A DNA stretch of 35,080 bases from a virus, in the IMG/VR virus record IMGVR_UViG_3300027839_000034, positions 1 through 35,080 of that record; one strand, 5' to 3'. Position numbers and translations under genes: made by a program. Positions 6,011 to 34,749 of this stretch are shown one piece after another; positions within the stretch are counted from its first letter, which is position 1, and each line of letters starts with the position of its first letter. The notes beneath the pieces are model-generated. The model made no database searches. It was given only the letters and a program-made list of their open reading frames with translations, and was not told the origin of the DNA.

Positions 6011-8743
6011 ATGACAATATATGGTTTCCATAAACTTACAAGTACGTTAAAAAGCATGGAAGGTATAAATTCAGATGAAAGATACTTTGAAGGATTACTA
6101 ACAGTACAAATGAAAGATAAGCAAGGTGAAGTTACCATAGTTGATGAATTATACAAAGTATTACCTGTATGGATAGACAGAGGAGCACCAATCAGTGATA
6201 CTCATTCTAACAGAATTGTAGGTAAAGGTATCAATTATTCTAGAACAACTGTAAAAAATGGTGAAGGTCATGAATTACCTGCAATTAAAATAACTGGTAA
6301 AATTTTCAAGAATTATGAATTAGACAATGTTATTTGGAATAAAATTAAAAATAATGAATATAAGGGATTATCATTTGGTGGTGCAACGAGATCAGCAAGA
6401 TCCCCAATTAAAATGAAAGACGGAAGTACTGCTTATGCATTAAGTGATCTTGAACATTATGAAGTTGCTGTATGTGCAGATCCTGCAGTACCAATGGCTA
6501 TCATTACTGATTTTAACCAGATTGCTAAAGCAAATTTTAACTCATCTGTTAGAGATGATGGTAAGATGGTAATTCAATGTGACAAGATGGGTTGTTATGT
6601 TAACAAAATAGGTGGTGGTGGAATAGGTGGAGGAGATCTCTTAACTGTTATGGAAGGTGATAAACCAGAAAATTATAATGCAGTTGAAAATGGTAAAAAA
6701 CGTGGTCGACCTATTGATAAAACTGAACCAACAGGTATGACTGATAGAGAATTAAAATTATGGAGAGAAATACAGGAAGATGATAAAGAAGATTCTGATA
6801 ATCAATATTATACTAAAGGAAAAGGAGATTTCTGTCCTAACTGTGGAAAACATAAAAAAATGGAAATGGGCGATATGACATCTATGGGTGGTGCATGTCC
6901 TAACTGTGGTCATGGTTTTAAAGAAAAATTTATGGAGAAAAAAGAGATGTTGGACGCAACATTAGGTAACAAGGAAGAGAAACGCCCAACACAATCTAAA
7001 AGAGATATGAGAGAAACTGAAACATCAGGATATAAACCAGATCTAGAAAAGGCTATTGAAATTATTAATAAAGCAGGATATAAAGTTGATACAGAAGATA
7101 GAAATAACGGTACAGGAATTAATGATGTGGAAAGAGAAATACCTGCAAAGAAACTTCCAATAAAAGGATCACTATCACAAGAACTTCCAACTCAAATTCA
7201 ACAAGCAGATCTAAACGAATCACAAACATTTGAACAAAAGGTACAAGCATTGATGGCAGAAGGTAAATCAAGAGAATCAGCAGAGAAGATTGTTGGTTCA
7301 TTCGTACATAAGGTCGAAGCAAGTTCAGGTTCAGGTGGTGCAGGTATAGGAGATTCAAATAATAGTAACGGTGGAACTTTAACAACACAAACTGGTGGTG
7401 CAAATAACCCAATACATAATAGTAAATGTCAATGTGATAAATGTAGAAGTAAGGGATTAGATATTAGTAATACTGGTTCAGGTGGAACAACTGAAGGAGC
7501 ATTTAATCAAAATCCACCTAATGCACAAAGATTGAATAATAAATCAGATGATGTCAATAAAGACTCACTTATAAAAATAGAAGATGAAAAAGATGAGAAT
7601 ACAAAAGTAGAAGTTTTAGATGAATGGAAACATGAGAAACACCCAGATGCAAAAGAGAAGGCAGATGATGAAGAAATAGTAGAGGCACCAGAGGTTGAAG
7701 AAGAAGAAAGACCTGAATGGGCATGGTTAATGAATCATAAATCAAAGGCAACTAGAGAAGTAAACAAAGTACATGCTTTAATGAAATTAAATAATATTAG
7801 AAAAATTAAAAGAAATCCAACTGCTCCAAAATCCACACAAAATAGTATGGCAAATGATGTAAACAATTATAATAATTGGTCAAAGTTGCAAGCAGGAGTA
7901 CAAGGACATCGAGATATTGATTCACAAGAATATTCTAGAAGACTACAAATAAATGCAACAAGAGCAGGAAGAGGAATGACAGATAAATATCCAATGCCTC
8001 CACGAACTGGTTTAAAACAAACTAAAAGAACTGTAGGTGCTTCTCGTACATCACTAGGAGGAGGATCAGGAAAAGGTGATGGAGCCTTGGGAAAATCAAT
8101 AGGAGATGGTAAACAAGCAAAACCAAGATCACGAAATCCAAGTAGAGATGATGCTAAAAAACCACATGATAAACATGGTAAAGATGATGATCATGAAAAA
8201 CCACCAACTCCAAAGATACGTTACAGTAGAGGTGGTGGAGATAATACTCCAAGACAAATTAGACAATCATTAGATGAACTCAGAAAACTAAGTACTTTTA
8301 AAGCCCCACCAGAAAAACATAGGAAAAGAGTAACAGTTGAGGATATAATATCACATGGAAAAAAAGAAAGAGAGGAAGCAGAAAAAAGAGTCAGAGAACT
8401 AAAGATTGGTGCATTAGAAAAAGTTATGACATATCAAAACACACGAGGTAATGTGGAAATGAAATATCCAACAGAAGGTGAAGAAGTATGGGATTCAAAA
8501 CAACAAAAACGTGTTAAAGAAACCAAGACACCAAAAAGAACAATGGCATTAGAAAAAGCATTAGCTGAACTTAAAAAACTACAAATTTCAGGTGGTTTAG
8601 GCTCAAGAGGTCTAGGATCAGAACATGGATATACTCAAGGTCAACAAGAGAGTACTCAAGTTACATTAGTACAACCAAGACCTGAAGATGACAGGGTACA
8701 ATCAAAAAGAACTACAAAAGAACCTAAAAAACAACAGTTATAA
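6011..8743 (+). CDS. prohead protease fused to a long hydrophilic (scaffold-like) region
   Basis: A 910-residue protein. Residues 20-175 match the prohead serine protease pattern (HK97/XkdF-like): DTHSNRIVGKG with candidate catalytic H65, KGLSFGG with candidate nucleophile S121, and LEHYEVAVCADPA with E148/E151 as possible third member. This enzyme clears scaffold inside the procapsid. A zinc ribbon follows (C275, C278, C296, C299), after an RGRP stretch at 231-234 that resembles an AT-hook core. The remaining 600 residues are charged and Gly/Ser/Asn/Lys-rich with helical runs (about 760-850), as in a disordered scaffold. The fused length is far above the usual 200-250 residues of such proteases. 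The frame is continuous, so this is not a frameshift. A separate scaffold-like gene follows. Confidence 0.75.
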   Translation: MTIYGFHKLTSTLKSMEGINSDERYFEGLLTVQMKDKQGEVTIVDELYKVLPVWIDRGAPISDTHSNRIVGKGINYSRTTVKNGEGHELPAIKITGKIFKNYELDNVIWNKIKNNEYKGLSFGGATRSARSPIKMKDGSTAYALSDLEHYEVAVCADPAVPMAIITDFNQIAKANFNSSVRDDGKMVIQCDKMGCYVNKIGGGGIGGGDLLTVMEGDKPENYNAVENGKKRGRPIDKTEPTGMTDRELKLWREIQEDDKEDSDNQYYTKGKGDFCPNCGKHKKMEMGDMTSMGGACPNCGHGFKEKFMEKKEMLDATLGNKEEKRPTQSKRDMRETETSGYKPDLEKAIEIINKAGYKVDTEDRNNGTGINDVEREIPAKKLPIKGSLSQELPTQIQQADLNESQTFEQKVQALMAEGKSRESAEKIVGSFVHKVEASSGSGGAGIGDSNNSNGGTLTTQTGGANNPIHNSKCQCDKCRSKGLDISNTGSGGTTEGAFNQNPPNAQRLNNKSDDVNKDSLIKIEDEKDENTKVEVLDEWKHEKHPDAKEKADDEEIVEAPEVEEEERPEWAWLMNHKSKATREVNKVHALMKLNNIRKIKRNPTAPKSTQNSMANDVNNYNNWSKLQAGVQGHRDIDSQEYSRRLQINATRAGRGMTDKYPMPPRTGLKQTKRTVGASRTSLGGGSGKGDGALGKSIGDGKQAKPRSRNPSRDDAKKPHDKHGKDDDHEKPPTPKIRYSRGGGDNTPRQIRQSLDELRKLSTFKAPPEKHRKRVTVEDIISHGKKEREEAEKRVRELKIGALEKVMTYQNTRGNVEMKYPTEGEEVWDSKQQKRVKETKTPKRTMALEKALAELKKLQISGGLGSRGLGSEHGYTQGQQESTQVTLVQPRPEDDRVQSKRTTKEPKKQQL

Positions 8744-16428: not shown

Positions 16429-18243
16429 ATGTCAGCAAATTCAGAAGGATTAATAGACATACCTAACCTTAAAGAGGCATTAAAAATTCAAAAAGAATTT
16501 TTGGAAGCATCAGTTAAAATTAGATCATCAGAACAAAGAGGTAATTTGGCAATGGATCATGCTTTGAAAGGTCAAAGAAAGGCTATGAATCTTATGACTA
16601 GACAATTCTCAGGTGGTGGAGTGCTTGGACAAGCAATGAATATGTTACAACAAGTAGGTGGAATGGGGTTACAAAACATGCAAGATAAATCTAATCTTCG
16701 TGATAAAGTAAAAAGTGGAAAAGCAACTGATGCAGAAAAATCACAATTTAGTATGTTATCACAATCAAAATCTACAGGTATATTTGAAAAATTAGATAAG
16801 ATATTTGATAAATCATTTGGTGGTAATTCTAGATGGAATAAGATGTTCGCAGGTAGAGGTAAAATGGCAGCAGGTGGAATGGCATTGGGTGCTGCAGGTG
16901 CAGGTGTGGGGTTAGCTTCTAAAATTATTGACTCATCTCCTTTAATGCAACAGATGATGAAATTACTTAACTTTGGTATTATGCTTATACTTAGACCTAT
17001 AGGTGACTTTTTCGGTATGCTCATGCGACCAATTTTAATAATGTTGTTACGAAAGTTTATCATACCATTCTATCAAACTGTATATCCTGTATTTCTTTCA
17101 TGGGCAAGAGATATTAATGAAATTACTGAAGCTATAACTGGAGGAAACGATAGTATTAATAAAACTATTATAGACACAGGTAAAGTAGCAGTAGCCACTA
17201 CTGGTACAGGATTAACTGCTATAACATCACTTCTCAAACCTAAAGAAATAGCTAAAATACCTGCATTAGCAGAGAATGTACTTAACCCAAGGAATTTACC
17301 AGCAGTTGCAGGTAAAACTCCACCTGAATTGGAAAAATTAAAAAACATTGCAAAAACTCTTGACCCCGTTATTAAAAAGAGTGATAAAATGGTTAACATT
17401 GCATTAAAAACAACTAAAGCAATTAATATGGTTGCAACAGCTCCAATCAAAATTGCAGAAAAAGCAATTACTAAAATGGCAATACCAGTAGCTAAAGCAG
17501 CAATAGATGTAAATAAAGGAATAATGAATCTTGCAACAGGAGGATTGAGTGGTAAAGTAGATAAAAGAGTAGGGAAAGTAAGTAATAAATTAGGTGGAGC
17601 AGCAAAAACTACATTAGGTAAAGCAACTAAACCTGTTACGGAAATTTTAGCAAGAGTAGGGGTTAAAACAGGAGCTAAAATTGCAGGAAAAACGGCTGCT
17701 AAATTTATACCTATTGTTGGACAGGCATTATTGGCAGTAGATGCAGCAGGATCTCTTATGAAACAATTTGCACCTGAACAATATGAAGGTGTGAGAAAAG
17801 GTGCACAAGGACTTGGTAGTATGTTAGGTGATAAAGATCATGTTTATACAGAAGGTATTTTAGACTTTTTAGGATTTGGTGAAAAATCAACTGCTGAACA
17901 AATTGTAGGAGGTGCAGGTTGGTTATCAGATAAGGTATCAGGTACAAACAGAGCTGAAGGAGAAGGAGCATTTGGTCAAGGTGGAGGTTGGTTTGGAATG
18001 GCTAATGGAGGAATGATTAGAGAACCAATTAAAGGTGTAGGTAAATCAGGTCAGAAATATAAGTTTGGTGAACGAGGTTCAGAAGCAGTAATTCCTATGG
18101 ATAGAATGAGAGGAGGTGGTTCAGGCGTAACAGTAAACGTAACAGTTAATGGTAGCATATACTCAGATAGAGATATGCTTCAATTCCAAAGAACAATAAT
18201 GAAAGCAATAGAGACAAGTAGTACGAGGAAGGCTAAACTATGA
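16429..18243 (+). CDS. tail tape measure protein
   Basis: A 604-residue protein. It has helical charged ends, a Gly/Met-rich hydrophobic stretch (about 60-80), and a strongly hydrophobic region (about 145-225: GMALGAAGAGVGLASKII, then LLNFGIMLILRPIGDFFGML). Lys/Ala-rich helices follow (280-400) and another Gly/Ala segment. The C-terminus has the typical tape measure ending: NGGMIREPIKGVGKSGQKY, FGERGSEAVIPM, then a Gly linker and VTVNVTVNG. The protein sets tail length; at about 0.15 nm per residue it predicts a tail near 90 nm. Its stop overlaps the next start (ATGA). Confidence 0.85.
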   Translation: MSANSEGLIDIPNLKEALKIQKEFLEASVKIRSSEQRGNLAMDHALKGQRKAMNLMTRQFSGGGVLGQAMNMLQQVGGMGLQNMQDKSNLRDKVKSGKATDAEKSQFSMLSQSKSTGIFEKLDKIFDKSFGGNSRWNKMFAGRGKMAAGGMALGAAGAGVGLASKIIDSSPLMQQMMKLLNFGIMLILRPIGDFFGMLMRPILIMLLRKFIIPFYQTVYPVFLSWARDINEITEAITGGNDSINKTIIDTGKVAVATTGTGLTAITSLLKPKEIAKIPALAENVLNPRNLPAVAGKTPPELEKLKNIAKTLDPVIKKSDKMVNIALKTTKAINMVATAPIKIAEKAITKMAIPVAKAAIDVNKGIMNLATGGLSGKVDKRVGKVSNKLGGAAKTTLGKATKPVTEILARVGVKTGAKIAGKTAAKFIPIVGQALLAVDAAGSLMKQFAPEQYEGVRKGAQGLGSMLGDKDHVYTEGILDFLGFGEKSTAEQIVGGAGWLSDKVSGTNRAEGEGAFGQGGGWFGMANGGMIREPIKGVGKSGQKYKFGERGSEAVIPMDRMRGGGSGVTVNVTVNGSIYSDRDMLQFQRTIMKAIETSSTRKAKL

Positions 18244-19193
18244 CTGGTATAGAAATACAGTTGTACAAAGTACACCCTGAATTATATACAAAAACAACTG
18301 ATGAAGCTGAAGATAAACATAGAATAGATAAATTTGTAGCCAAGACATTTGAGTCTATAGGAATAGATTTAAACACACCTATATCACCTATGCCTTTACC
18401 TGAAGATAGATCAACAGAAAACATATTGGTAAAAATGGAAGGTAACTCACAACAGGTAAGATTTAGTTGTAGGTTTGATGGTGATTTAGTTGAATTAAGT
18501 TATGTAGAAGATATAATTGAAGTATTAACACAGGCAGGACAATTAAATGTAGATAATAGATCTGCACTAGATATAACAGCAACACCATCGTTAGGATCAA
18601 CTTATACTTATATTCCAGAAACTACTACTACAGATAACATATCATTAGTACAATTATTTTTAAATAATTTTGAATCTAGATCCATAACTGATTCTTTTGT
18701 ATTGAGAATAGTTGATAAAGCAGCACTTCCAGCAAATGATAAGATTTTATTTACAGGTGAAGGATCAATTCAATCAATCAGCACATCTACAGATTCAGCC
18801 TCTCCTGTAGTTTGGAATGTTAATGTAGACTTTTTAATAGGAAAAGTAATATCAATTTATGATGCTGATGTTCCTGAAGAGGTAACAGGATTAGAAGTAA
18901 GTAGAGGAGATGCATCAGGAAAAATAATGTTTAGATGGAGTCCTCCTGCAAGAGAAGGTGGATCTGCAGTTATTAAATATACATTCGTTTGGCAAAAAAC
19001 ATTAGAAGGTGTATGGAATGGTGAAAATTCTATTTTAGCCTCAGCTTGTCCTGCCACTGTACCTTCAAATGAGACTAAATTTCTATATCAACTATCAGCT
19101 TTACCAACAGGTCAAGATTATAAAGTATATATGATTGCTGAAAACACTTCAGGTGCAGGTGCAATATCACAAGTTGTTAGGGTTACTTTATGA
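18240..19193 (+). CDS. distal tail / baseplate protein with C-terminal FN3 domain
   Basis: A 317-residue protein that starts inside the tape measure stop (ATGA). Residues 1-205 are an alpha-beta region (MTGIEIQLYKVHPELYTKTT at the start), likely the tail-binding part. Residues 211-317 form a fibronectin type III domain: VTGLEVSRGD, the W of FRWSPP, GGSAVIKYTF, the LPTGQDYKVYMIAENTSG loop-strand and a last TL strand. FN3 domains on tail tips help bind sugars or surface proteins. The position right after the tape measure fits a Dit-like adaptor, but the N-terminal domain shows no motif I can name. Confidence 0.65.
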   Translation: MTGIEIQLYKVHPELYTKTTDEAEDKHRIDKFVAKTFESIGIDLNTPISPMPLPEDRSTENILVKMEGNSQQVRFSCRFDGDLVELSYVEDIIEVLTQAGQLNVDNRSALDITATPSLGSTYTYIPETTTTDNISLVQLFLNNFESRSITDSFVLRIVDKAALPANDKILFTGEGSIQSISTSTDSASPVVWNVNVDFLIGKVISIYDADVPEEVTGLEVSRGDASGKIMFRWSPPAREGGSAVIKYTFVWQKTLEGVWNGENSILASACPATVPSNETKFLYQLSALPTGQDYKVYMIAENTSGAGAISQVVRVTL

Positions 19194-23974: not shown

Positions 23975-25621
23975 ATGGCAATTACATATCACGCAGGTAG
24001 AAGAATACAAGGAACAAGTTCAGATGTAGCAGTAGTTGCTAGTCGTGGAACAATAGACACAACATCATCGCCAAATAATACAATAATTACATTTACAGGA
24101 GATGGAACATTTACACCTACATCATCATTCAATGTTCAATATTTAGTTCTTGGAGGTGGTGGAGGTTCAGGTTATGATAGAGGTGGAGCAGGAGGTGCAG
24201 GAGCATTTAGAACTGCTACAGGATTTGCAGTTACTGCTCAAGGTTATGATATTACAGTTGGATCTGGAGGAGCTGGTGGTAATGTTGGAAGTGCACCAAA
24301 TTGTGGTGTAGATGGAGATGCTTCAGTATTTGGAACTATCACAGCAGATGGAGGTGGTCATGGTGCAGCAAGTGATGGTGCAGCAAATGGTTATTCTGGT
24401 AATGGTTCAGGTGGTGGTGGAAATCTAGAAGCACAAGCATACGGTGTAGGTGGTACTTATGGTAATAGTGGTGGAGCTATGATTTGTGCTGGTGGGAACT
24501 CTCCTTATCAAGCTTCTGGTGGAGGAGGATCTGGTGCTGCTGGTGCAACAGGTTGTGATAATGGAGCTGGTGGAGCTGGTGGAGCTGGATCTGTAAATAC
24601 AATATCAGGAAGTACAATAGGAGAATCATCAGGTGGATCTTATTATCTTGGTGGGGGTGGAGCAGGAGGAGCAAATCAGGCTTATGCAACTCAAGGTGGT
24701 CTAGGTGGTGGAGGAGATAAGGGTATAACAGGTCACGTTAATGGTTATGATGGAGCTACAAATATGGGAGCTGGTGGAGGAGGAGGATACGGTGGTTCTG
24801 GATCATTAGGTGGTTCTGGTGGTAGTGGTGTTGTTATTATTAAATTTGTTACAAGTGGTAATACTTATGATACTGGTTCAGGTGGAAAACCAACTGATGT
24901 CCAAGCAGGAAGTAGATATGAAGAAACAGATACTACAAAGTTTTATAATTATAATGATCCATTAATCTTAGATGATAATTTTACTGCAAATGATTGGGGT
25001 AAAGATCCATCTAATTCACAGTTTTATGTAGGAAATAGTAAAATTAATTTCTTAGATAATACAAGTTCAACAGGGGATAGAACTTGGTTTGATTTAGGAA
25101 CAAATGTAAGTACAACTGCATGGATATTAAGATTCAGATTTAGATTTACTACATTGACAAGTGGTACATATTATTATGAATTTGATGCAGGTTTATCTGA
25201 TACTACTGTAGATAATAATACAAATCAAAACTATATTGGTGTTAGAGTTTTACCACCTAGTAGTTTAAATAAATGGAGACCAAGAACTTGTAATGGAAGT
25301 GAAGCACCAAGGTCAGGAGATGATGCAGATGAATCACAAACATACGCATTAAATACAGATTATTATGCAGAAGTCAAAAGAACCTCAGCAGATAATTGGT
25401 CAGTATCTTTATCTTCAACTAATGCTTATAATGGAAATTTACAAAATAATTCATTTACAACTGGAGGTGATGCAACAGGATTAAGATATTTCAAATTTGG
25501 AGATGCAGTTACCAACACAGGTACAGGATTTACTATGGAAGGATATGTAGATCAAGTTGAATTTTACAATAATGTAACAACTACAACAACAGGTAACATA
25601 TGGAGTGAGGAAGGAATATGA
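23975..25621 (+). CDS. glycine-rich fibre/spike protein with LamG-like C-terminal half
   Basis: A 548-residue protein. It opens with the motif YHAGRRIQGTS shared with the gene at 28774. Residues 30-290 are a glycine-rich domain: TIITFTGDGTFTPTSSFNVQ, VLGGGGGSG, many GGAGG runs and the closing GGSGGSGVVIIKF strand, as in Gly-rich domains of phage receptor proteins. Residues 305-325 hold the EETDTTKFY module. The rest is a LamG-like domain (LDDNFTANDWG, STTAWILRFRFRFTTL, MEGYVDQVEFYN). The start follows the previous stop by 16 bases, with AGGTGGG before it. A glycan- or surface-binding role is inferred. Confidence 0.75.
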   Translation: MAITYHAGRRIQGTSSDVAVVASRGTIDTTSSPNNTIITFTGDGTFTPTSSFNVQYLVLGGGGGSGYDRGGAGGAGAFRTATGFAVTAQGYDITVGSGGAGGNVGSAPNCGVDGDASVFGTITADGGGHGAASDGAANGYSGNGSGGGGNLEAQAYGVGGTYGNSGGAMICAGGNSPYQASGGGGSGAAGATGCDNGAGGAGGAGSVNTISGSTIGESSGGSYYLGGGGAGGANQAYATQGGLGGGGDKGITGHVNGYDGATNMGAGGGGGYGGSGSLGGSGGSGVVIIKFVTSGNTYDTGSGGKPTDVQAGSRYEETDTTKFYNYNDPLILDDNFTANDWGKDPSNSQFYVGNSKINFLDNTSSTGDRTWFDLGTNVSTTAWILRFRFRFTTLTSGTYYYEFDAGLSDTTVDNNTNQNYIGVRVLPPSSLNKWRPRTCNGSEAPRSGDDADESQTYALNTDYYAEVKRTSADNWSVSLSSTNAYNGNLQNNSFTTGGDATGLRYFKFGDAVTNTGTGFTMEGYVDQVEFYNNVTTTTTGNIWSEEGI

Positions 25622-27738
25622 CCATAGAATACAAAGATAGTAAACGAATTGTAAAATTATCAACTGATACACTCACATCAGCAACTAGAAGTGATTTTAC
25701 AGGAACATGGACATCAGGAGGAACTACAAATAAAATAGCTGCTTCAAATGGAACTATAACTGTCACAATAAATACTGATAATAATGTAGATGCAAGATTA
25801 ACTTATGATATGGGTGCAGGAAATGTATCAGATTCAATATGGATATTAAGAGCAAAATTAGTTTATACACATAATATATCTGCTAGTGGAGCTTGTACGA
25901 TACATTGGGGTATGGCAGATAATACAACAATAACAGGAGAAAATGCAGGTGGTGCAAATGATTTGGTAGGTGGTGTAGCACACTTACAAGATAATACTAA
26001 CAATACACAAAATGCGATAAATGGTTCAGGTGTAACTGGAAATAACAGGGATAATAGAATGTCTACTGGTAATACATATTACATTGAGTTAAAACGTGTA
26101 TCAGTAACATCAGTGACCATGAAAGTATTTAGTGATGTATCATATTCAACTCAAGTTGGTGCAACATCTAGTGCTACTTTAACTTCTGCACTTACAGGTG
26201 GCAGATATTTTTTCTTCCATCATTTTACTCAAACTGTAAATAGTGGAAGTGGAAGTCTTGTGTTCAGTGATATGAAATTTTATAACAGTATTTCAGAAAT
26301 AATATCTAAACCAACTGACGTACAAAACAATTCCATTCTAATAGAGAAAGATACTGCTAAGAGATATTGGTTTGATTCAGGAACAGATGAAGATATAACT
26401 TGGGATTCCTCAACTGCTGTTAATGTAAGTATATCAGGTAATACTGCAACTGCCACAGGTACTTTGGGGTGGGATAAAACAGTACGATCCACACAAACAT
26501 GGACACCAAGTGATACACCAACTTTAGAATTTACAATGACAACCCCCAGTACAATTAATCAAATGATGGGATTCGGTAAAGGTACGTTAGGTACTTCTTA
26601 TCAAAATATTGATTTTGCACTATATGCTTCATCAACATATTATTCAATTTATGAAAATGGAGTTGCTGGTCTTGTAACTTCCATATCTCCTTCTACATCT
26701 GATACATTAAAAGTTACAATGGATTCAAACGGATTAGTAAAATATTGGGTTAATGGTGTAGTATTTTACACAAGCACACAAATTGCAAGTGGTGAATATT
26801 ATGCACAGTATGCACCAAAGATAGTTGGTTCAACTACAACTGGTAAGTATAGTTTTGATACTTGGGCTTTGGCTTATGCTCGGTATGATGCTACTAGAGG
26901 CGTATCATGTGGTGGTTGGTCATCAGTAGGAGCAACAGATTCAATGGATTGGATCACGATAGCTACTATTGGAAACGCTGCTGACTTTGGTAATTTAACA
27001 GCAGCAAGAAGAAATTCGGCAGGGGTTAGTTCTCATACTAGAGGTTGTATGGGAGGTGGGATAGCTTCTAGTCGTACAAACACAATAGATTATATTACTA
27101 TAGCATCTACAGGAAACGCTACAGACTTTGGAGATTTATCCACAGCAACTGAATCAAATGATGGAGTTAATTCAGATGTAAGAGGTATATTTGGTGGTGG
27201 TCATACTGGAGCTGCTTCAAACACAATGGATTATATAACAATAGACACGACAGGAAATACCACAGACTTTGGAGATTTAACGGTGGCAAGGGCGAATATA
27301 AATGCAGTCATGTCAGAGGTAAGAGGTGTATATGGATCAGGAAGTGGAGCTTCAGTTAGTAACATGATGGATTACATAACCATAGCAACAACTGGAAATG
27401 CAACTGACTTTGGCGACTTATCAGTAGCTCGGTATGGTGGAGCTGGGCTTAATTCTGTTGTTAGAGGTGTATGGGCTGGTGGAGAAGCATCTGGGTTTTC
27501 AGCAGTTATGGATTATATCACAATAGCAACCACAGGTAATGCAACTGACTTTGGCGACCTAACAGTAGCACGAAATAGTATTCGAGGTGGAGTTTCTTCA
27601 GCTACTAGAGGTGTTGCGTGTGGTGGTCATACATTTTCTAACGTAATGGACTATATTACAATAGATACAACTGGAAACGCTACTGACTTTGGAGATTTAA
27701 TGTTTGCAAAATATGGTGTAACAGGAGTACAAGCATGA
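25618..27738 (+). CDS. LamG-like and kelch-like repeat tail protein
   Basis: A 706-residue protein starting by ATGA overlap. Residues 20-225 are a LamG-like domain (SIWILRAKLVYTHN; SLVFSDMKFYN) related to that of the preceding gene. Residues 228-260 carry the ETDTxKxY-like module (here IEKDTAKRYWF). A second beta-sandwich follows (about 265-415). The last 285 residues hold six units of about 47 residues with core MDYITIATTGNATDFGDLTV, then A-R, a variable part, and RGVxxGG. This resembles kelch-like units of marine phage fibres and could form a six-bladed propeller. The variable part of each blade would carry specificity. Confidence 0.75.
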   Translation: MTIEYKDSKRIVKLSTDTLTSATRSDFTGTWTSGGTTNKIAASNGTITVTINTDNNVDARLTYDMGAGNVSDSIWILRAKLVYTHNISASGACTIHWGMADNTTITGENAGGANDLVGGVAHLQDNTNNTQNAINGSGVTGNNRDNRMSTGNTYYIELKRVSVTSVTMKVFSDVSYSTQVGATSSATLTSALTGGRYFFFHHFTQTVNSGSGSLVFSDMKFYNSISEIISKPTDVQNNSILIEKDTAKRYWFDSGTDEDITWDSSTAVNVSISGNTATATGTLGWDKTVRSTQTWTPSDTPTLEFTMTTPSTINQMMGFGKGTLGTSYQNIDFALYASSTYYSIYENGVAGLVTSISPSTSDTLKVTMDSNGLVKYWVNGVVFYTSTQIASGEYYAQYAPKIVGSTTTGKYSFDTWALAYARYDATRGVSCGGWSSVGATDSMDWITIATIGNAADFGNLTAARRNSAGVSSHTRGCMGGGIASSRTNTIDYITIASTGNATDFGDLSTATESNDGVNSDVRGIFGGGHTGAASNTMDYITIDTTGNTTDFGDLTVARANINAVMSEVRGVYGSGSGASVSNMMDYITIATTGNATDFGDLSVARYGGAGLNSVVRGVWAGGEASGFSAVMDYITIATTGNATDFGDLTVARNSIRGGVSSATRGVACGGHTFSNVMDYITIDTTGNATDFGDLMFAKYGVTGVQA
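26880..27735 (+). repeat. six kelch-like repeats, about 140 bases each
   Basis: Six copies encode (M/I)D(W/Y)ITI(A/D)xxGN followed by DFG(D/N)L. The units keep the GN...DFG core at the protein level but vary between cores. Variation is concentrated in the stretch between DFGDL and the next RG(V/C/I). Confidence 0.75.
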
Positions 27739-28526
27739 CCGATATAGAAGTATTCAAACAAGTGACTGATATAGCCACTTTAGATAAGGCACAGATAGCA
27801 AAGATAACTGCAAGACTTCCAGAGTATAAACGTGGCAGTTCAATCATTGGTCATTCCACTAGCCAATCTAGTTATTCACTTCAAACAATGCAGATGATTA
27901 GTGATTCCCCATTATCAAGAATGAAACAATGTCTCGCACAGATAGATAAAAAATACAAGGCAATTCAAGAAGCATATTACTCTATTGAAAAGAAAAAACT
28001 AACAGTAGAAAAATTGAGAAAAGATACTAATGAACATTCCAGATTAACAGTAGAAGAATACACATCACAGATAGAATCTATTACAATGTTAATGAATACT
28101 TCTCTAAGGGAAATAGGTATGTTCCAAGATATGTATGATGCTATCAAAAAGAATAACAACATACCTGACAACTGGACTGAAAAGGATTATGAATCACAGG
28201 AAATATCTCACATGGTAAAAGCATCATTCAGATTAGCAGTACAAGATTTATCTTCAACAGGCAGGGTAGGAAAAGCAGTAGTAGAATATTGGGAGCAGTT
28301 AGGAATACACCCACAACTAGCAGAATCAAAAACAAGATCATACTTGGTATTAATACAGGAAAAGATTAACAGTTCAGCAAAGGTAACAATAAGAGATATG
28401 TATGATTTCCTAGATGATATGGCAGAGGAGTTTAAAGATTCATATCAAGATGCATTATCACGAATGGGATTAGATGAATTAGGTTCAGAAGAATTTATGG
28501 CACATGGAGCAACGAAACCACAATGA
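27735..28526 (+). CDS. coiled-coil protein in the fibre operon
   Basis: A 263-residue helical protein starting by ATGA overlap. The region SRMKQCLAQIDKKYKAIQEA and onwards to about residue 145 is a long charged coiled coil. The C-terminal part is a helical bundle with an acidic end. It has no signal peptide or membrane segment. Similar 'PLSRMKQCLxQI' proteins occur near fibre genes in marine phages, as far as I recall, with unknown function. In this position it may be a fibre-assembly chaperone or a helical stalk. Confidence 0.65.
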   Translation: MTDIEVFKQVTDIATLDKAQIAKITARLPEYKRGSSIIGHSTSQSSYSLQTMQMISDSPLSRMKQCLAQIDKKYKAIQEAYYSIEKKKLTVEKLRKDTNEHSRLTVEEYTSQIESITMLMNTSLREIGMFQDMYDAIKKNNNIPDNWTEKDYESQEISHMVKASFRLAVQDLSSTGRVGKAVVEYWEQLGIHPQLAESKTRSYLVLIQEKINSSAKVTIRDMYDFLDDMAEEFKDSYQDALSRMGLDELGSEEFMAHGATKPQ

Positions 28527-28780
28527 GCCAAGAGTTTAAAGATCATGTAGAACAGGGGGAAGAATATACTTGTGATAAATGTAATGAAACAAAACTTGAT
28601 GCTAATGAGTATGACCAATATATCATCATGCAATATCACTACTGTAAACCATGTTGGAACTATGTTCATTTAAAGAAAGGTACTTGTGATAAATGTAAAA
28701 GTACAATGACCAATAGAAGCGAATCAGAAACAATCTTTATAGACTGTGATTGTGGGAATAAGGTTGAGTTAAAATGGTAG
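28523..28780 (+). CDS. small zinc-ribbon protein in the fibre operon
   Basis: An 85-residue acidic protein with four cysteine pairs: C17/C20, C41/C44, C55/C58 and C75/C77. These make two four-cysteine zinc sites. It overlaps the previous gene by four bases and the next by seven, so it is clearly part of the operon. Zinc ribbons are unusual among fibre genes; a structural zinc protein, an assembly factor or a regulator are all possible. Confidence 0.65.
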   Translation: MSQEFKDHVEQGEEYTCDKCNETKLDANEYDQYIIMQYHYCKPCWNYVHLKKGTCDKCKSTMTNRSESETIFIDCDCGNKVELKW

Positions 28781-29880
28781 AATGGCTAGCTGGAAATCGT
28801 ATTCGTGGTACAAGTACAGAACGTACTACAGGTGCAGGATTTAATCCAGTTGATGCTATTTCAGGTGGCTGGAAAGAACTAGCAAGAACTACATTAGGAA
28901 GTACAGGAGATAGTATTAATGTTACATCATTACCTGATAAGAAATATTATATGTTTTTAGCTCATGGAATAACAGCAACTGGTAATATGAATTATAAATG
29001 GAGAGTAAATGGCGATACGAGTTCACATTATGCTGTTAGATATAATGATGGAGAAGGTGCAGGTAATGATAGCTCACAAGTAAATTATCCTCATAGTTTT
29101 CCAGCTGGTGCTGATGATAGTAGTTCAACAGGAACAAATTATTTTAATGTTGGTTATATTTCAAGTATAGAAGGAAAAAATAAATTATCTATTAGTCATG
29201 AGTTAAATGATAGAAATACAGGAGCAGGAACATTACCTCGTAGATTTGAATCAGTATGTAAATATTGTCCAACTGATTTAGATGATCCAATAAGTAGTAT
29301 TAATTTATATAATGATGGTACAGGAGATTATTCATCAGATTCAGAAGTTGTCGTATTAGGTTGGGATCCAGATGATACCCATACTGATAACTTTTGGGAA
29401 GAATTGGTTAGTGTAAATGCTAGTGGTTCAAGTACAACATTAGATACTGGAACGTTTACTGCCAAGAAATACCTGTGGGTTCAGATATATTTAGAAGGAG
29501 CATCAAATTTAACCACTCAATTATTTACATATAACAATGATTCAAATACACTTTATTGCCAAAAAGGAATAAGGAACGGTACAGCAAGTAGTAATGTAAG
29601 TATTAATCATGCAAACTTAAACGTAACAGGTGGAACTAATCAAAAAGGTGTATTCTTTAATGGATTCATAATTAATAGTTCATCTAAAGAAAAATTAGCA
29701 ACATTTACTGGTGTTGGACAAAATACAGCAGGATCTGCTGCCACCAATACCATTCCAGTAAGATTACAACAGGTTCACAAATATGCAAGTAACACACAGA
29801 TCACAAGCATGAAGATGGTTCAAAATGAATCAGTTAATTACGGTAGTAAATCAATTATCAAAGTATGGGGTAGTAACTAA
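28774..29880 (+). CDS. adhesin-like tail protein with two related beta domains
   Basis: A 368-residue protein with the N-terminal motif EWLAGNRIRGTS, matching the start of the gene at 23975. Residues 30-180 and 200-365 each form a beta-rich domain with the same opening (ARTTLGSTGDSINVTSLPDK; then SVNASGSSTTLDTGTFTAKK) and a similar end (LPRRFESVCKY; VRLQQVHKY). They therefore look like a tandem duplication. The gene overlaps the zinc-ribbon stop by seven bases and its own stop overlaps the next start. Receptor binding is the likely role, by context. Confidence 0.7.
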   Translation: MVEWLAGNRIRGTSTERTTGAGFNPVDAISGGWKELARTTLGSTGDSINVTSLPDKKYYMFLAHGITATGNMNYKWRVNGDTSSHYAVRYNDGEGAGNDSSQVNYPHSFPAGADDSSSTGTNYFNVGYISSIEGKNKLSISHELNDRNTGAGTLPRRFESVCKYCPTDLDDPISSINLYNDGTGDYSSDSEVVVLGWDPDDTHTDNFWEELVSVNASGSSTTLDTGTFTAKKYLWVQIYLEGASNLTTQLFTYNNDSNTLYCQKGIRNGTASSNVSINHANLNVTGGTNQKGVFFNGFIINSSSKEKLATFTGVGQNTAGSAATNTIPVRLQQVHKYASNTQITSMKMVQNESVNYGSKSIIKVWGSN

Positions 29881-30479
29881 TGGCTTGGGGTAATGCAGGT
29901 AGTACAACCTTGACAAGTACTGGAGATAATATTGCAGTTTCAAGTTTAACAAGTAATACATTCTTTCAAACCATGTCAAGTATAATAGATTCTGCATGGA
30001 CATTCCATGATGGTAGGCTTAATTCAGATACAGGTACTAATTATGGTTACAGATATAGAGATGATGCATCGTATGGAACTGATGGAACTGCTGCTGGAGC
30101 AAATAAAATACTATTTGGTACAGGAGGAGGGGAGACTCAAATATTCTCAGTTAGTTATATTGCAAATATATCAGGGGAAGAAAAATTAGTAATTACACCT
30201 AATTCAGTTAATCAAGCAGTAGAAGGAGCAGGTGGTGCATTATCTCGTAGAGAGTCAGTTTCAAAATGGACTGGAACTGCTGTAATCAATAGTATCACAG
30301 CATATAATAGTAATACTCCAACTGGAGGTTATGCTGTAGATTCAAATCTCACAATATTAGGAGATAATATTACAGCAGCAGCAGTAGTAGCAACAAAAGT
30401 TCAAGATGGAGCTGTATATTATGAAACTGATACTAATAAATCGTATGTACTTTCGTCAAGCGTTTGGACTGAACTGTAG
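29880..30479 (+). CDS. adhesin-like tail protein, single-domain paralogue
   Basis: A 199-residue protein with one copy of the domain seen twice in the previous gene: GSTTLTSTGDNIAVSSL at the start and LSRRESVSKW near residue 125. It ends with the module VQDGAVYYETDTNKSYVLSS. The start shares one base with the preceding stop (TAATG). It probably arose by duplication and capture of the ETDT module and may be part of the same adhesin complex. Confidence 0.7.
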   Translation: MAWGNAGSTTLTSTGDNIAVSSLTSNTFFQTMSSIIDSAWTFHDGRLNSDTGTNYGYRYRDDASYGTDGTAAGANKILFGTGGGETQIFSVSYIANISGEEKLVITPNSVNQAVEGAGGALSRRESVSKWTGTAVINSITAYNSNTPTGGYAVDSNLTILGDNITAAAVVATKVQDGAVYYETDTNKSYVLSSSVWTEL

Positions 30480-30489
30480 GTAATTACAC

Positions 30490-33400
30490 TTGGCAGTAAT
30501 TGCACAAGTATTCCAATCGAACATATTTCAGAACAGTGTATTCCAACAAGGATATGGTTCTCCTGCATTTCAAAAGAATGTATTCCAAAACAATGTATTT
30601 GATGTACCTACTACAGTAATCAAAGTTATTAATGAGACTATAAACACAGCAGAATCTAAAGCAAAATTACAATCATTAATAAGATCACTTGATGAGACAA
30701 TATCCATACAGTCATTTAGAAGTAGACTTAGAGCAATCCTTAAACTCGTATCAGATAACGTTCAAACCACAGAACAAAGAAATACACTAAGAGGTTTATC
30801 TAGGGCATTAAATGAAACTGTAAACACTCAGGAATCAATGACACAATATCTGACTATACTAAGATCTTTGATAGAGACTGAGCAAATATCAGAATCAAAG
30901 GTAAGACTACTTTCTATTAATAGAATTATAAATAAGACCGTACAGGTAGCAAGTTCAATAGTAAAATCAAGAGGAATTAGAAAGGTCATAAGTGAGATAG
31001 TAACTGTGGGTAAGGCAGTATTCCAATACAATGTGTTCCAGAATAATGTGTTCCAGTTATCTATAGATGAATCTATATTGTTAAGAGAAAGGATAAAGAC
31101 TGTAACAGAAACCATATCCATACAGTCATTCAGAGACAGGTCAAGGGTTATTAAAAGAGTAATAAGTGAGGGCATCAGTCTATCTGAATCCTTGTATAAA
31201 GGTTGGATAAAGAGAGTCAATAATACTGTAAATATTATCGCAGTAAACATGCCTGTATTTAGTATAACCAAAATCATATCAGAAGTATTGTCAATAGGCA
31301 AGGCAGTATTCCAGTCCAATGTATTCCAAAACAATGTGTTCCAGAACACTATTGATGAGACTATTGCATTATTAGGAAAGGTAAGAGTTGTATCTGAAAC
31401 AGTTCAGGCAAGTGATGCTTTCAAGATGTTACGAGGAATAAACAAAGTTGTAACATCAACCATACAGTTAGCAGAATCACAAATACATCTAAGTGTTGTA
31501 CGCAAAGTTATATCTGAGACAGTCAATATCCTAGCATTTAGAGATAGATTAAGAGCAATCAGAAAGATAGTTACTGACTCAGTACAGGTAGCAGAGGTTA
31601 AGAATTACTTCCAATCTATAATCATGTTAGTAAACAATACTGTTTCTATTAACATAGTAGGATTATTCCAGTCTAATATATTCCAGTCTAATGTATTCCA
31701 AAATGTCAATGTAGAGGCTATTGTAATAAGAGGATTGAATAGAATAATTAATAAGACTATAAGTGTATCTGACTCCTTCAATAGTCATAGAGTATTAAGA
31801 AGAATATTATCTAACACTGTAAGTGTATCACAGTCAGAGAATAGATTGATGATTATCAAGAGAGTATTTACTAACACTGTTCAAGTAGCAGAGTCAGCAA
31901 TACGATCATCTATAATGAAGAAAGTGTATAATGAGACTGTTAACATACTAGCATTTAGAACCAAGTTAGAACAGTTCACAAGAGTGATAAGTGAGACAGT
32001 TCAACACAGTGAAATTATTAATGACTTTAGAGGAATGGGTAGAATAATTAACAACACATTAAACATATTAGAGAATGAGGCTAGAGCACTTGGATTTGTA
32101 AAGGTTGCTAACAGTGTTGTGAATATAGCACACTCCTATGTAAGACTCACAGTGTTGAGAAGGATAATAGACAACACCATATCATTATCTGAATCGTTAT
32201 ACAAGGGTTGGATAAAGAGTGTAAACAGTATCATAAGTACATCTGAATCACAAATACATCTAAGTGTTGTACGCAAAGTTATATCTGAGACTGTAAATAT
32301 TTTGGCTTTCAGAGATAGGCTCAGAGCACTTAGAAAGATAATCAATAATTCTATCAGTATATCTGAAACTGTACCAAGACTTAGAGGAGTATTTAGAATT
32401 ATAACAGAGACAGTACAAACCTCAGATGCTTCCAAATGGTATAGAACTATCAATAGAGTAGTAACATCAACTGTTCAAGTAGCAGAGTCATTGTTAAGAC
32501 GTAACGTAATGTTAAGAGTAAGAAATGAAGTAGTTAGAATAGGCAAACCTTTATTCCAATCCGATATATTCCAAACCAATGTATTCCAACAAGTTTCAGA
32601 GGCAATAAGAATACGAGGAATGAGAAGAACAATTAATAATACATTAAGTATATCTGAATCAATATTAAAGTACAGAGTATTAACTAGAATAATTAATAGT
32701 ACCTTATCTGTATCTGAAAATATTTCAAGACTCAAAGACTTGATAAAACATGTAAATGAAACTGTAAGCATACTTGCATTTAGAGTAAGAAACAGATCAA
32801 TCACACGAATTATTACTGATGTGGTTCAGATGGCAGAGGCATTTAATAAGAAATGGTCAAGAGCATTTACTGAAAGTGTAAGTGTATCTGATGGAAGAGT
32901 AGTATTAAAAGAATTAAGAATAATAATAAACAAGAGTATATCTATAACTGAATCATTCTATAAGAGTTGGAGTAGATCATTCACTGAATCAGTCAATATA
33001 TCTACTACTAAACCAAGACTTAGAGATTTGATGAGAATCATTACAAAATCAGTAAGCGTATCTGAGACAGTATCAAGACTCAGAGGATTATCAAAGGTTG
33101 TATCTGAGACAATTAATATATCTGAGATAGTAACTAGATTAAAATCTCACACCAAACATGTAAACGAATCAATACAGATAGTAACTTCATTAACCCCACG
33201 AAGAGTATTACAAAGAGTATATAATGAGACAGTTAACATACTTGCTTTCAGAGATAGACTCAGAGTACTTACAAGAATTATCAATAATACCATATCCGTA
33301 TCTGAGAATATGTACAAGGGTTGGGCTAAGAGTATCAATGAAACAATTTCAATTAATGTATCAGGTGCATTCCAAAATATATTCCAGTCCAATGTGTTCC

Positions 33401-34749
33401 AAATAGTACACAAAGAAGCCATTGTATTACTTACAATGAGAAGAATATTGACTGAATCTATAAGCATATCTGAAACATTATCAAGAATACTTTCAATCAA
33501 GAGAGTAGTAACAAGCACCATGAATGTTGCAGAATCATTATTGCCTTACAGAGTATTAAGCAGAGTGATAACAAAATCAGTAAGCGTATCAGAATCAATC
33601 TCAAGACTAAAAGACATTAGAAAGATAATATCTGAGACTGTTAATATCCTAGCATTTAGAGATAGACTCAGAGCAATCAGAAGAATCATAACTGAATCAA
33701 TCAGTATATCTGAAACAAGAATAAGATCAAGAGGAGTGATAAAAACAATCACTGATACAGTACAAACCTCAGATGTCTATATATTATATAGAGAATTGAG
33801 TAGAATCTTATCTGACACAGTTAACGTAGCAGAAACTAGAGTTAGATTAAGAGGAATCATAAAGACATTATCTGATACAGTTAATATATCTATAGGATTA
33901 ATACCATTACGTTCACTAGGTAGAACAATAACTGACACTGTCAATGTATCTGAGACAGTCTCAAGACTCAAAGACTTAATCAAACATATCAATGAGACAA
34001 TATCCATACAGTCATTCAGAGACAGATCAAGAGGACTACTCAGAATCATAACTGAAAGTATATCTGCATCTGAATCATTTGCACAAGGTTGGTCAAGAGC
34101 ATTTACTGAGTCAATATCTATTAGTGATAGCAATGTCAAATTAAGAGGAATCATAAAGACATTTACTGATGCAGTAAGCGTATCAGAATCAATCTCAAGA
34201 CTAAAAGATTTGATAAAACATGTAAATGAAACCATATCTATACAATCATTCAGAGATAGATCAAGGGACTTACTTAGAATTATAAATGAAACTATACAAT
34301 TATCAGAAACCATTCCAAGACTCAGAGGATTATCAAAGATAGTATCTGACACAGTTAATATATCTGAATTAAAGAATACAATAATTGGTAGTATTAAGAA
34401 TGTAACTGAGACTGTTAATATCCTAGCATTTAGAAGTAGGAAGAAAGTAATATCTATAGTTATTAATAATACATTAAGTATATCTGAATCAATTTCAAGA
34501 CTATTCGTAATTACACAAATAATAACTGAGACTGTTCAGGTGGCAGAATCAATAATCAAAGACTTGAGAGATGGTCTAGTAAGGGTAAGAAGGACTATAA
34601 GAATCAATAAACGTGGTGGATCAGCTAGCCTAAAAGGTAGATCCAAGACTACTAGACTAAGCAGAAAGGGCTCTCAGGAAGTATATGATAGGAGTAAGAA
34701 TGCGAAAGTTAATAAACGAAGTCAGGATATAAAGGGTGAAGACACATGA
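30490..34749 (+). CDS. giant repeat protein of about 20-residue units with FQxNxFQ blocks
   Basis: A 1419-residue protein. From about residue 45 to 1360 it is built of some 60 units of 19-21 residues, with consensus R(I/V)I(T/S/N)(E/D/N)(T/S)(V/I)(S/N/Q)(I/V)(S/A)E(S/T) followed by a variable part and R(L/S)R. A frequent variant carries ILAFRDRLRAI. Six blocks of the type FQSNVFQNNVFQ interrupt the units. The last 55 residues are very basic. From memory, thaumarchaeal surface proteins have similar 'ESLSISDSVS' repeats, so an adhesive or spike role is plausible. The start is TTG (30490), 10 bases after the previous stop; no better ATG is near. There is no signal peptide, as expected for a virion protein. 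Units differ in DNA, so they are not recent copies overall. Confidence 0.7.
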   Translation: MAVIAQVFQSNIFQNSVFQQGYGSPAFQKNVFQNNVFDVPTTVIKVINETINTAESKAKLQSLIRSLDETISIQSFRSRLRAILKLVSDNVQTTEQRNTLRGLSRALNETVNTQESMTQYLTILRSLIETEQISESKVRLLSINRIINKTVQVASSIVKSRGIRKVISEIVTVGKAVFQYNVFQNNVFQLSIDESILLRERIKTVTETISIQSFRDRSRVIKRVISEGISLSESLYKGWIKRVNNTVNIIAVNMPVFSITKIISEVLSIGKAVFQSNVFQNNVFQNTIDETIALLGKVRVVSETVQASDAFKMLRGINKVVTSTIQLAESQIHLSVVRKVISETVNILAFRDRLRAIRKIVTDSVQVAEVKNYFQSIIMLVNNTVSINIVGLFQSNIFQSNVFQNVNVEAIVIRGLNRIINKTISVSDSFNSHRVLRRILSNTVSVSQSENRLMIIKRVFTNTVQVAESAIRSSIMKKVYNETVNILAFRTKLEQFTRVISETVQHSEIINDFRGMGRIINNTLNILENEARALGFVKVANSVVNIAHSYVRLTVLRRIIDNTISLSESLYKGWIKSVNSIISTSESQIHLSVVRKVISETVNILAFRDRLRALRKIINNSISISETVPRLRGVFRIITETVQTSDASKWYRTINRVVTSTVQVAESLLRRNVMLRVRNEVVRIGKPLFQSDIFQTNVFQQVSEAIRIRGMRRTINNTLSISESILKYRVLTRIINSTLSVSENISRLKDLIKHVNETVSILAFRVRNRSITRIITDVVQMAEAFNKKWSRAFTESVSVSDGRVVLKELRIIINKSISITESFYKSWSRSFTESVNISTTKPRLRDLMRIITKSVSVSETVSRLRGLSKVVSETINISEIVTRLKSHTKHVNESIQIVTSLTPRRVLQRVYNETVNILAFRDRLRVLTRIINNTISVSENMYKGWAKSINETISINVSGAFQNIFQSNVFQIVHKEAIVLLTMRRILTESISISETLSRILSIKRVVTSTMNVAESLLPYRVLSRVITKSVSVSESISRLKDIRKIISETVNILAFRDRLRAIRRIITESISISETRIRSRGVIKTITDTVQTSDVYILYRELSRILSDTVNVAETRVRLRGIIKTLSDTVNISIGLIPLRSLGRTITDTVNVSETVSRLKDLIKHINETISIQSFRDRSRGLLRIITESISASESFAQGWSRAFTESISISDSNVKLRGIIKTFTDAVSVSESISRLKDLIKHVNETISIQSFRDRSRDLLRIINETIQLSETIPRLRGLSKIVSDTVNISELKNTIIGSIKNVTETVNILAFRSRKKVISIVINNTLSISESISRLFVITQIITETVQVAESIIKDLRDGLVRVRRTIRINKRGGSASLKGRSKTTRLSRKGSQEVYDRSKNAKVNKRSQDIKGEDT
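30505..33402 (+). repeat. six FQxNxFQ-type blocks inside the giant repeat gene
   Basis: Blocks lie near 30505-30600, 31016-31057, 31305-31345, 31665-31706, 32550-32592 and 33367-33402. Each encodes two to four copies of (V/I)FQxN and is preceded by a short Gly-containing strand such as IGKAV. The DNA repeats GTATTCCA and GTGTTCCA many times. The spacing between blocks is irregular (about 290-885 bases). Confidence 0.7.

Follow-up and report, generated by a model that had tools for sequence, protein, structure and literature searches.

Several tailed viruses are known to combine conserved attachment sequences with variable binding domains. In podoviruses and Klebsiella phages (K1-5, G7C, KP32/KP34-type), short conserved N-terminal peptides attach several receptor-binding proteins (RBPs; PMC6872550), and in the Ackermannviridae tail spikes with conserved N-termini are exchanged (PMC11414711). 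The adhesins of T-even phages recombine their specificity domains between conserved motifs (Tetart et al. 1998, as cited in PMC11414711). Glycine-rich adhesin domains occur both in T-even phages and in haloarchaeal hafunaviruses (PMC8651126), and HFTV1, an archaeal siphovirus solved whole, carries three trimeric fibres with putative carbohydrate-binding domains on a trimeric baseplate hub (PMC12494034).

The fibre region described here lies 3' of the tape measure and tail-tip genes in a 35-kb tailed-virus record, of which the whole stretch of 35,080 nucleotides was analysed (the window). We consider it likely that this region encodes an array of receptor-binding proteins (tail fibres) in three slots, in which fixed slot-specific frames hold interchangeable cassettes, with recombination near the tags and modules that make up the frames and with a split form of the jelly-roll cassette.

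Tags, modules and cassettes in the window

The region comprises slot A (23975-25621), slot B (25618-27738), two small genes (starting at 27735 and 28523) and slot C, which consists of two genes (28774-29880 and 29880-30479), all on the + strand. An earlier note had pointed to an N-terminal tag and an ETDT module shared among these fibre genes, joined to different C-terminal domains. We built tag and module profiles from the contigs of relatives only, leaving the window out, and searched the window in six frames. These hold-out profiles recovered all three tags (28-37 bits, 3/3) and all three modules (34-40 bits, 3/3; E 8.7e-12, 3.9e-11 and 5.9e-10) where the note had placed them, its coordinates being correct to within a few bases. 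No further tag or module match was found anywhere in the six frames of the window, and in 50 residue-shuffled windows the tag profile scored 11.4 bits at best and the module profile 8.0 bits. A 28-base DNA match at 7470-7494, short and near a glycine-rich stretch, was discarded.

The tags are about 17 residues long: tag A (MAITYHAGRRIQGTSSDV) lies at 23975-24028 (E 8e-11), tag B (MTIEYKDSKRIVKLSTDT) at 25618-25671 (E 6.5e-8) and tag C (MVEWLAGNRIRGTSTER) at 28774-28824 (E 2.5e-9). What had been read as a weaker form of the tag in the protein at 25618 is instead the slot B version, which relatives keep as such. Module A (KPTDVQAGSRYEETDTTKFYNY) spans 24887-24952, module B (KPTDVQNNSILIEKDTAKRYWF, E 8.7e-12) 26308-26373 and module C (ATKVQDGAVYYETDTNKSYVLSSSVWTEL) 30390-30476, the core of the last (ATKVQDGAVYYETDTNKSYVL) occupying 30390-30452 and its hairpin extending to ..WTEL at 30476. 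The module is common to all three places, as the note had held, but the ETDT motif is not, module B reading EKDT instead. Module C was modelled as a three-stranded C-terminal hairpin (strands at aa 179-182, 187-192 and 195-198; pLDDT above 90) within a model of the 29880-30479 protein that was computed from a 74-sequence alignment (mean pLDDT 90); tag A, folded alone, gave a low model confidence of about 40. Since the module profile had no significant match among solved structures and only weak matches in PHROGs, the module is not tied to any named motif.

The arrangement of these elements is richer than a tag followed by swappable C-termini: there are three slot-specific sets of tag and module, and cassettes flank the module on both sides. 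The slot A gene (23975..25621, 548 aa) encodes tag A, a glycine-rich cassette, module A, a lectin-like cassette and the last strand of the module. Its cassette 1 (24101..24847) matches the Pfam family Gly_rich_2 (PF21722) with 65.3 bits at a cut-off of 24.3 (E 1.1e-17). Cassette 2 (24953..25597) is inserted into module A, after strand 2, which ends in ..KFYNY, and before strand 3, the last (25595..25618), which is ..IWSEEGI; such a W-x-E terminus is found in most slot A proteins bearing a lectin-like cassette 2. Structure comparison aligned 188 residues of the cassette 2 model (model residues 328-534) with ERGIC-53 (Z 17.0, rmsd 3.0), and by this prediction the cassette is an L-type (ERGIC-53/legume) lectin fold and a putative sugar binder.

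The slot B gene (25618..27738, 706 aa) encodes tag B, a beta-sandwich cassette, module B, an insert and, as cassette 2, six kelch-like repeats of ~47 aa each (26887..27711). Here cassette 2 comes after the hairpin, with which the slot B protein of one relative (L091) itself terminates (..RRYWFTAPATWTLET); in slot C the module forms the C-terminus. The kelch-like cassette has a companion gene of 263 aa (27735..28526 in the window) that is found with it in whichever slot it occupies: of 10 slot groups with kelch, 9 have the companion downstream of the kelch gene, groups without kelch lack it, and distant homologues stand behind the kelch-like arrays of other, unrelated viral contigs. It may be an assembly helper. 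The second small gene (28523..28780, 85 aa) is Zn-ribbon-like and is often found upstream of slot C. Three other viral contigs (L046, L056 and L062) carry long tandem series of separate kelch-like genes, about 13 of them in L046, and the slot B protein of one relative (L012:2599-6855, 1419 aa) has four consecutive lectin-like domains ahead of its module.

Immediately 3' of slot C, the window encodes a 1419-aa protein of degenerate repeats (30490-34749; ETVxISExxxRL..., FQSNVFQNNVFQ blocks), homologues of which, of widely varying length, also lie 3' of slot C in several relatives. A tail protein encoded at 18240-19193 has a fibronectin type III domain at its C-terminus.

The major capsid protein (MCP) of the window virus is 25% identical to that of Haloarcula tailed viruses (HVTV-1/HCTV) over 99% of its length (E 2e-23), and the portal is 24% identical to the HVTV-1/HCTV portal (E 1e-25); the sole further capsid match in the phage collection was the MCP of a Methanofastidiosa virus. 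Judged from these matches, the window virus is an archaeal tailed virus (Caudoviricetes), distantly related to the HVTV-1/HCTV type and belonging to another family. Its setting is presumably marine, to judge by how often relatives were recovered from metagenomes and by who authored the records. Searches of GTDB genomes for a host returned no match to the tag+module peptide, nor to a small zinc protein that was tried as a pointer to the host. A chaperonin, which we take to be a marker of magroviruses, was present in none of the 12 related records examined. In the annotated phage collection, the slot A protein, the tag+module peptide, the slot C protein and the 263-aa companion had no match, and the kelch part of slot B had only a 26% match to a cyanophage.

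Slot specificity and cassette exchange among relatives

Six scans of viral contigs yielded 103 loci with a tag or module, which form 42 groups at 95% DNA identity; in 18 groups all three tagged genes lie on the stretch retrieved. The relatives follow a common plan of tag, cassette 1 and module, with a cassette 2 additionally in slots A and B. Slot order is usually A-B-C. The exceptions are L028/L096, with the order A-C-B, and L146, in which slot C lies ahead of slot B; in both cases tag and module retain their class despite slot C preceding slot B. One contig (L010/L126; IMGVR_UViG_3300010153_000003, 65,074 b) has slot A at its 3' end and slots B and C at its 5' end, and looks like a complete circularly permuted genome cut within the fibre region.

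Tags and modules are specific for their slot. Identity among tags is 72% for the same slot versus 43% for different slots, that among modules 72% versus 45%, and 71 of 72 tags and 65 of 65 modules had their nearest relative in another contig within their own slot, the slot labels behind these two counts drawing on tag class and gene order jointly. With labels given by gene order alone, 46 of 54 tags still sort by slot, which none of 300 within-virus permutations equalled; six of the eight exceptions are tags of the A-C-B contig or slot C tags matching its slot C tag, and the tags of that contig fit their class. The cassettes carry no slot signal. Jelly rolls are 33% identical both within and between slots (nearest neighbour from the same slot in 33/72, 43% expected), and lectin-like domains 25% within and between (19/41, 46% expected).

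The contents of each slot are mixed. Cassette 1 of slot A is glycine-rich, a jelly-roll trio, lectin-like, a lectin plus jelly rolls, of another type or missing; that of slot B is lectin-like, glycine-rich, a jelly-roll trio, of another type or missing; and that of slot C, to which L125 belongs by its tag, is a jelly-roll trio, glycine-rich, lectin-like or of another type. Taking both cassette positions together, the slots of relatives join the same tag and module to glycine-rich, L-type-lectin-like, jelly-roll or kelch-like cassettes or to none, in line with the swapping proposed in the earlier note. The relatives show neither a single fixed domain order nor a loss of the similarity on alignment. 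As tags and modules keep to their slot and all else moves, their contacts are most likely fixed by position. Of the note's picture of a docking tag with swappable receptor-binding domains, the swapping is directly visible; the slot-specific conservation of the tags suggests that they dock, and the predicted folds of the cassettes suggest that these bind receptors.

The tags and modules might instead be the inherited ends of three old paralogues, conserved as scaffold and lacking distinct docking sites, with cassettes acquired by illegitimate recombination and selection. Paralogy of the three tags is clear from their between-slot identity (0.43), they are not known to have a partner protein, and codon-level conservation is unremarkable, all of which suits such an origin. 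What makes it unlikely is that the tags hold their slot class while cassettes roam between slots, that tag and module classes shift jointly as sets in the A-C-B contig, and that the module retains its class even on a chain that has no tag.

Comparison of close relatives, which the earlier note had suggested as a check, revealed near-identical viruses that differ by entire cassettes, with junctions at modules. L003 and L004 are 99.8% identical across 12,352 nt, as far as module B, and carry unrelated cassettes beyond; the block of perfect identity stops at the first codons of module B, the alleles of which are mosaic. A second perfect run of ~45 nt covers the leader and the start of tag C, with differing flanks, after which the slot C cassette is unmatched and identity reappears, at a lower level, at module C. 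L012 and L083 run together, at 99.3% identity, across tag A and module A and diverge where module A ends, into a lectin-like cassette in the one and a glycine-rich one in the other. L102 and L105 differ in cassette 1, near-identity resuming in module A, at its start. The same pattern is seen at a greater distance between the window and L003: the tail genes are 81-90% identical at the DNA level, islands of 80-85% identity lie at tag A, module A, the end of slot A with tag B, module B and module C, and the cassettes between the islands are unmatched. Two further near-identical pairs (L011/L023 and L123/L131) differ outside the slots or inside a cassette, so that the modules are not the sole junctions. 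We infer that recombination is the cause of the cassette exchange.

These junctions, found at modules in three near-identical pairs, together with the ~45-nt run at the start of tag C, could also be taken to mean that the DNA of tags and modules serves mainly as recombination sites, the role of the encoded peptides being secondary. However, any exchange should leave its junctions where the last shared block ends, and amino-acid conservation of tags and modules is strong among divergent viruses. Codon identity in tags and modules (0.52-0.75) is near that of other tail genes (0.56-0.72), a conservation modestly higher, if at all, and as a sign of a DNA role we found it modest and unconvincing. 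We regard a primary role as recombination sites as improbable.

Still more improbable is an artefact of metagenome assembly, in which chimeras arising at the short repeated modules would have produced the junctions seen in near-identical pairs. The contigs are all metagenomic and the modules do recur within and between genomes, but the module B alleles of L003 and L004 differ every few bases, the same mix of slots and cassettes appears in about 40 contig groups, and the comparison of the window with L003, 81-90% identical around the region, shows the same pattern.

The split jelly-roll trio

In slot C of the window, tag and module are encoded by different genes. Chain 1 (28774..29880, 368 aa) consists of tag C and jelly rolls 1 and 2, then stops, and has no module; chain 2 (29880..30479, 199 aa) consists of jelly roll 3 and module C and has no tag. 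Stop and start overlap in TAATG (29878..29882). The same split is present in 31 of 31 distinct trio junctions, distributed over slots A, B and C, with the ATG at +2 (25 junctions) or +4 (6 junctions) relative to the stop. The first gene always ends after the second jelly roll (..WGSD/N) and the next opens directly with the third, and no ORF with all three jelly rolls was found. With the trio split over two genes, tag and module come to lie on different chains. The presence of the split in all three slots indicates that the trio moved between slots as one unit, split included.

The jelly rolls themselves form three position-specific groups (JR1, JR2 and JR3; nearest neighbour in the same group for 69 of 72). 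Their predicted fold is a jelly-roll sandwich. Among solved structures the best neighbours include TNF-like chains (Z 7.5 for Pgp3, 7.3 for BC2L-C, 7.2 for PLTL and 6.3 for EDA-A1), with galectins and GH32 sandwiches at 6.5-7.2, too close to separate; the jelly-roll profile had no significant match to PDB sequences. Most likely, the two chains, tag-JR1-JR2 and JR3-module, form one pseudo-trimeric head. The position-specific groups would make sense if two chains contributed three different domains to a pseudo-trimer.

That the split arises from faulty assembly, or from programmed frameshifting that yields a single fused chain, is hardly credible: frames that overlap directly, as in TAATG, may also accompany frameshifting, but the split recurs in all 31 junctions, in many contigs and in all three slots, every second frame has its own ATG right at the start of a jelly roll, and with this start at +2 or +4 no one frameshift direction would do.

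Proposed array and comparison with known systems

We propose that each fibre protein would probably be plugged by its N-terminal tag into its own site at the tail tip or baseplate, and that the beta-hairpin module would hold or cap the binding domains or serve as a second contact. The stretch from tag to module would house a cassette, and slots A and B would take a further one inside the module or behind it, the choices being a glycine-rich domain, an L-type-lectin-like domain, a jelly-roll trio, or kelch-like repeats with their companion gene. Recombination near the short stretches of tag and module DNA would swap cassettes from virus to virus and, on a longer time scale, from slot to slot, and incoming binding domains would be retained if tag and module stay correct. 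In the jelly-roll form, two chains, probably coupled in translation, would most likely assemble into one pseudo-trimeric head. More tentatively, and with less than even confidence, the array can be read as a two-ended frame with three addresses that accepts any cassette, the jelly-roll cassette being an obligate two-chain pseudo-trimer that joins tag and module.

The proposed array would provide a readable rule for receptor-binding change in little-known archaeal viruses, with fixed tags and modules, three addresses and free cassettes, by which binding parts could be changed without loss of the attachment points. Such a rule permits fibre genes of almost no common sequence to be recognised in metagenomes, and virus strains differing in one cassette only become nameable. 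The split form also offers a natural test of short N-terminal tags, because tag and module are on separate chains.

The window virus resembles the branched multi-RBP systems and the Ackermannviridae in having several RBPs with a short conserved N-terminus and exchanged variable domains: its fibre proteins have an N-terminal sequence in common that is kept in relatives, and their variable domains are exchanged. In those systems, too, the conserved ends have been proposed as recombination sites. Unlike there, the cassette has a second conserved boundary in the hairpin module, tag and module come in three slot-specific versions and can sit on two chains, and the virus is archaeal. Pfam and PHROGs scans of ten tail and fibre proteins detected no gp10-like adapter (T4 gp10-like domains), though a diverged adapter would escape them. 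With the adhesins of T-even phages and hafunaviruses the array shares the glycine-rich domain and the exchange of specificity domains between conserved motifs, but here the glycine-rich domain is one cassette of several and the frame of tag and module lies outside it. Like HFTV1, whose three fibres radiate from the tail tip, the window virus is an archaeal tailed virus with three predicted fibres and putative carbohydrate-binding domains; whereas HFTV1 carries three trimeric fibres, the window virus would have three different fibre types. A limited literature search, which included bacterial phages, found neither a two-ended slot-specific frame nor a split trio described. The parts of the array are known in kind; what looks new is the frame, two-ended and slot-specific, and the splitting of the trio.
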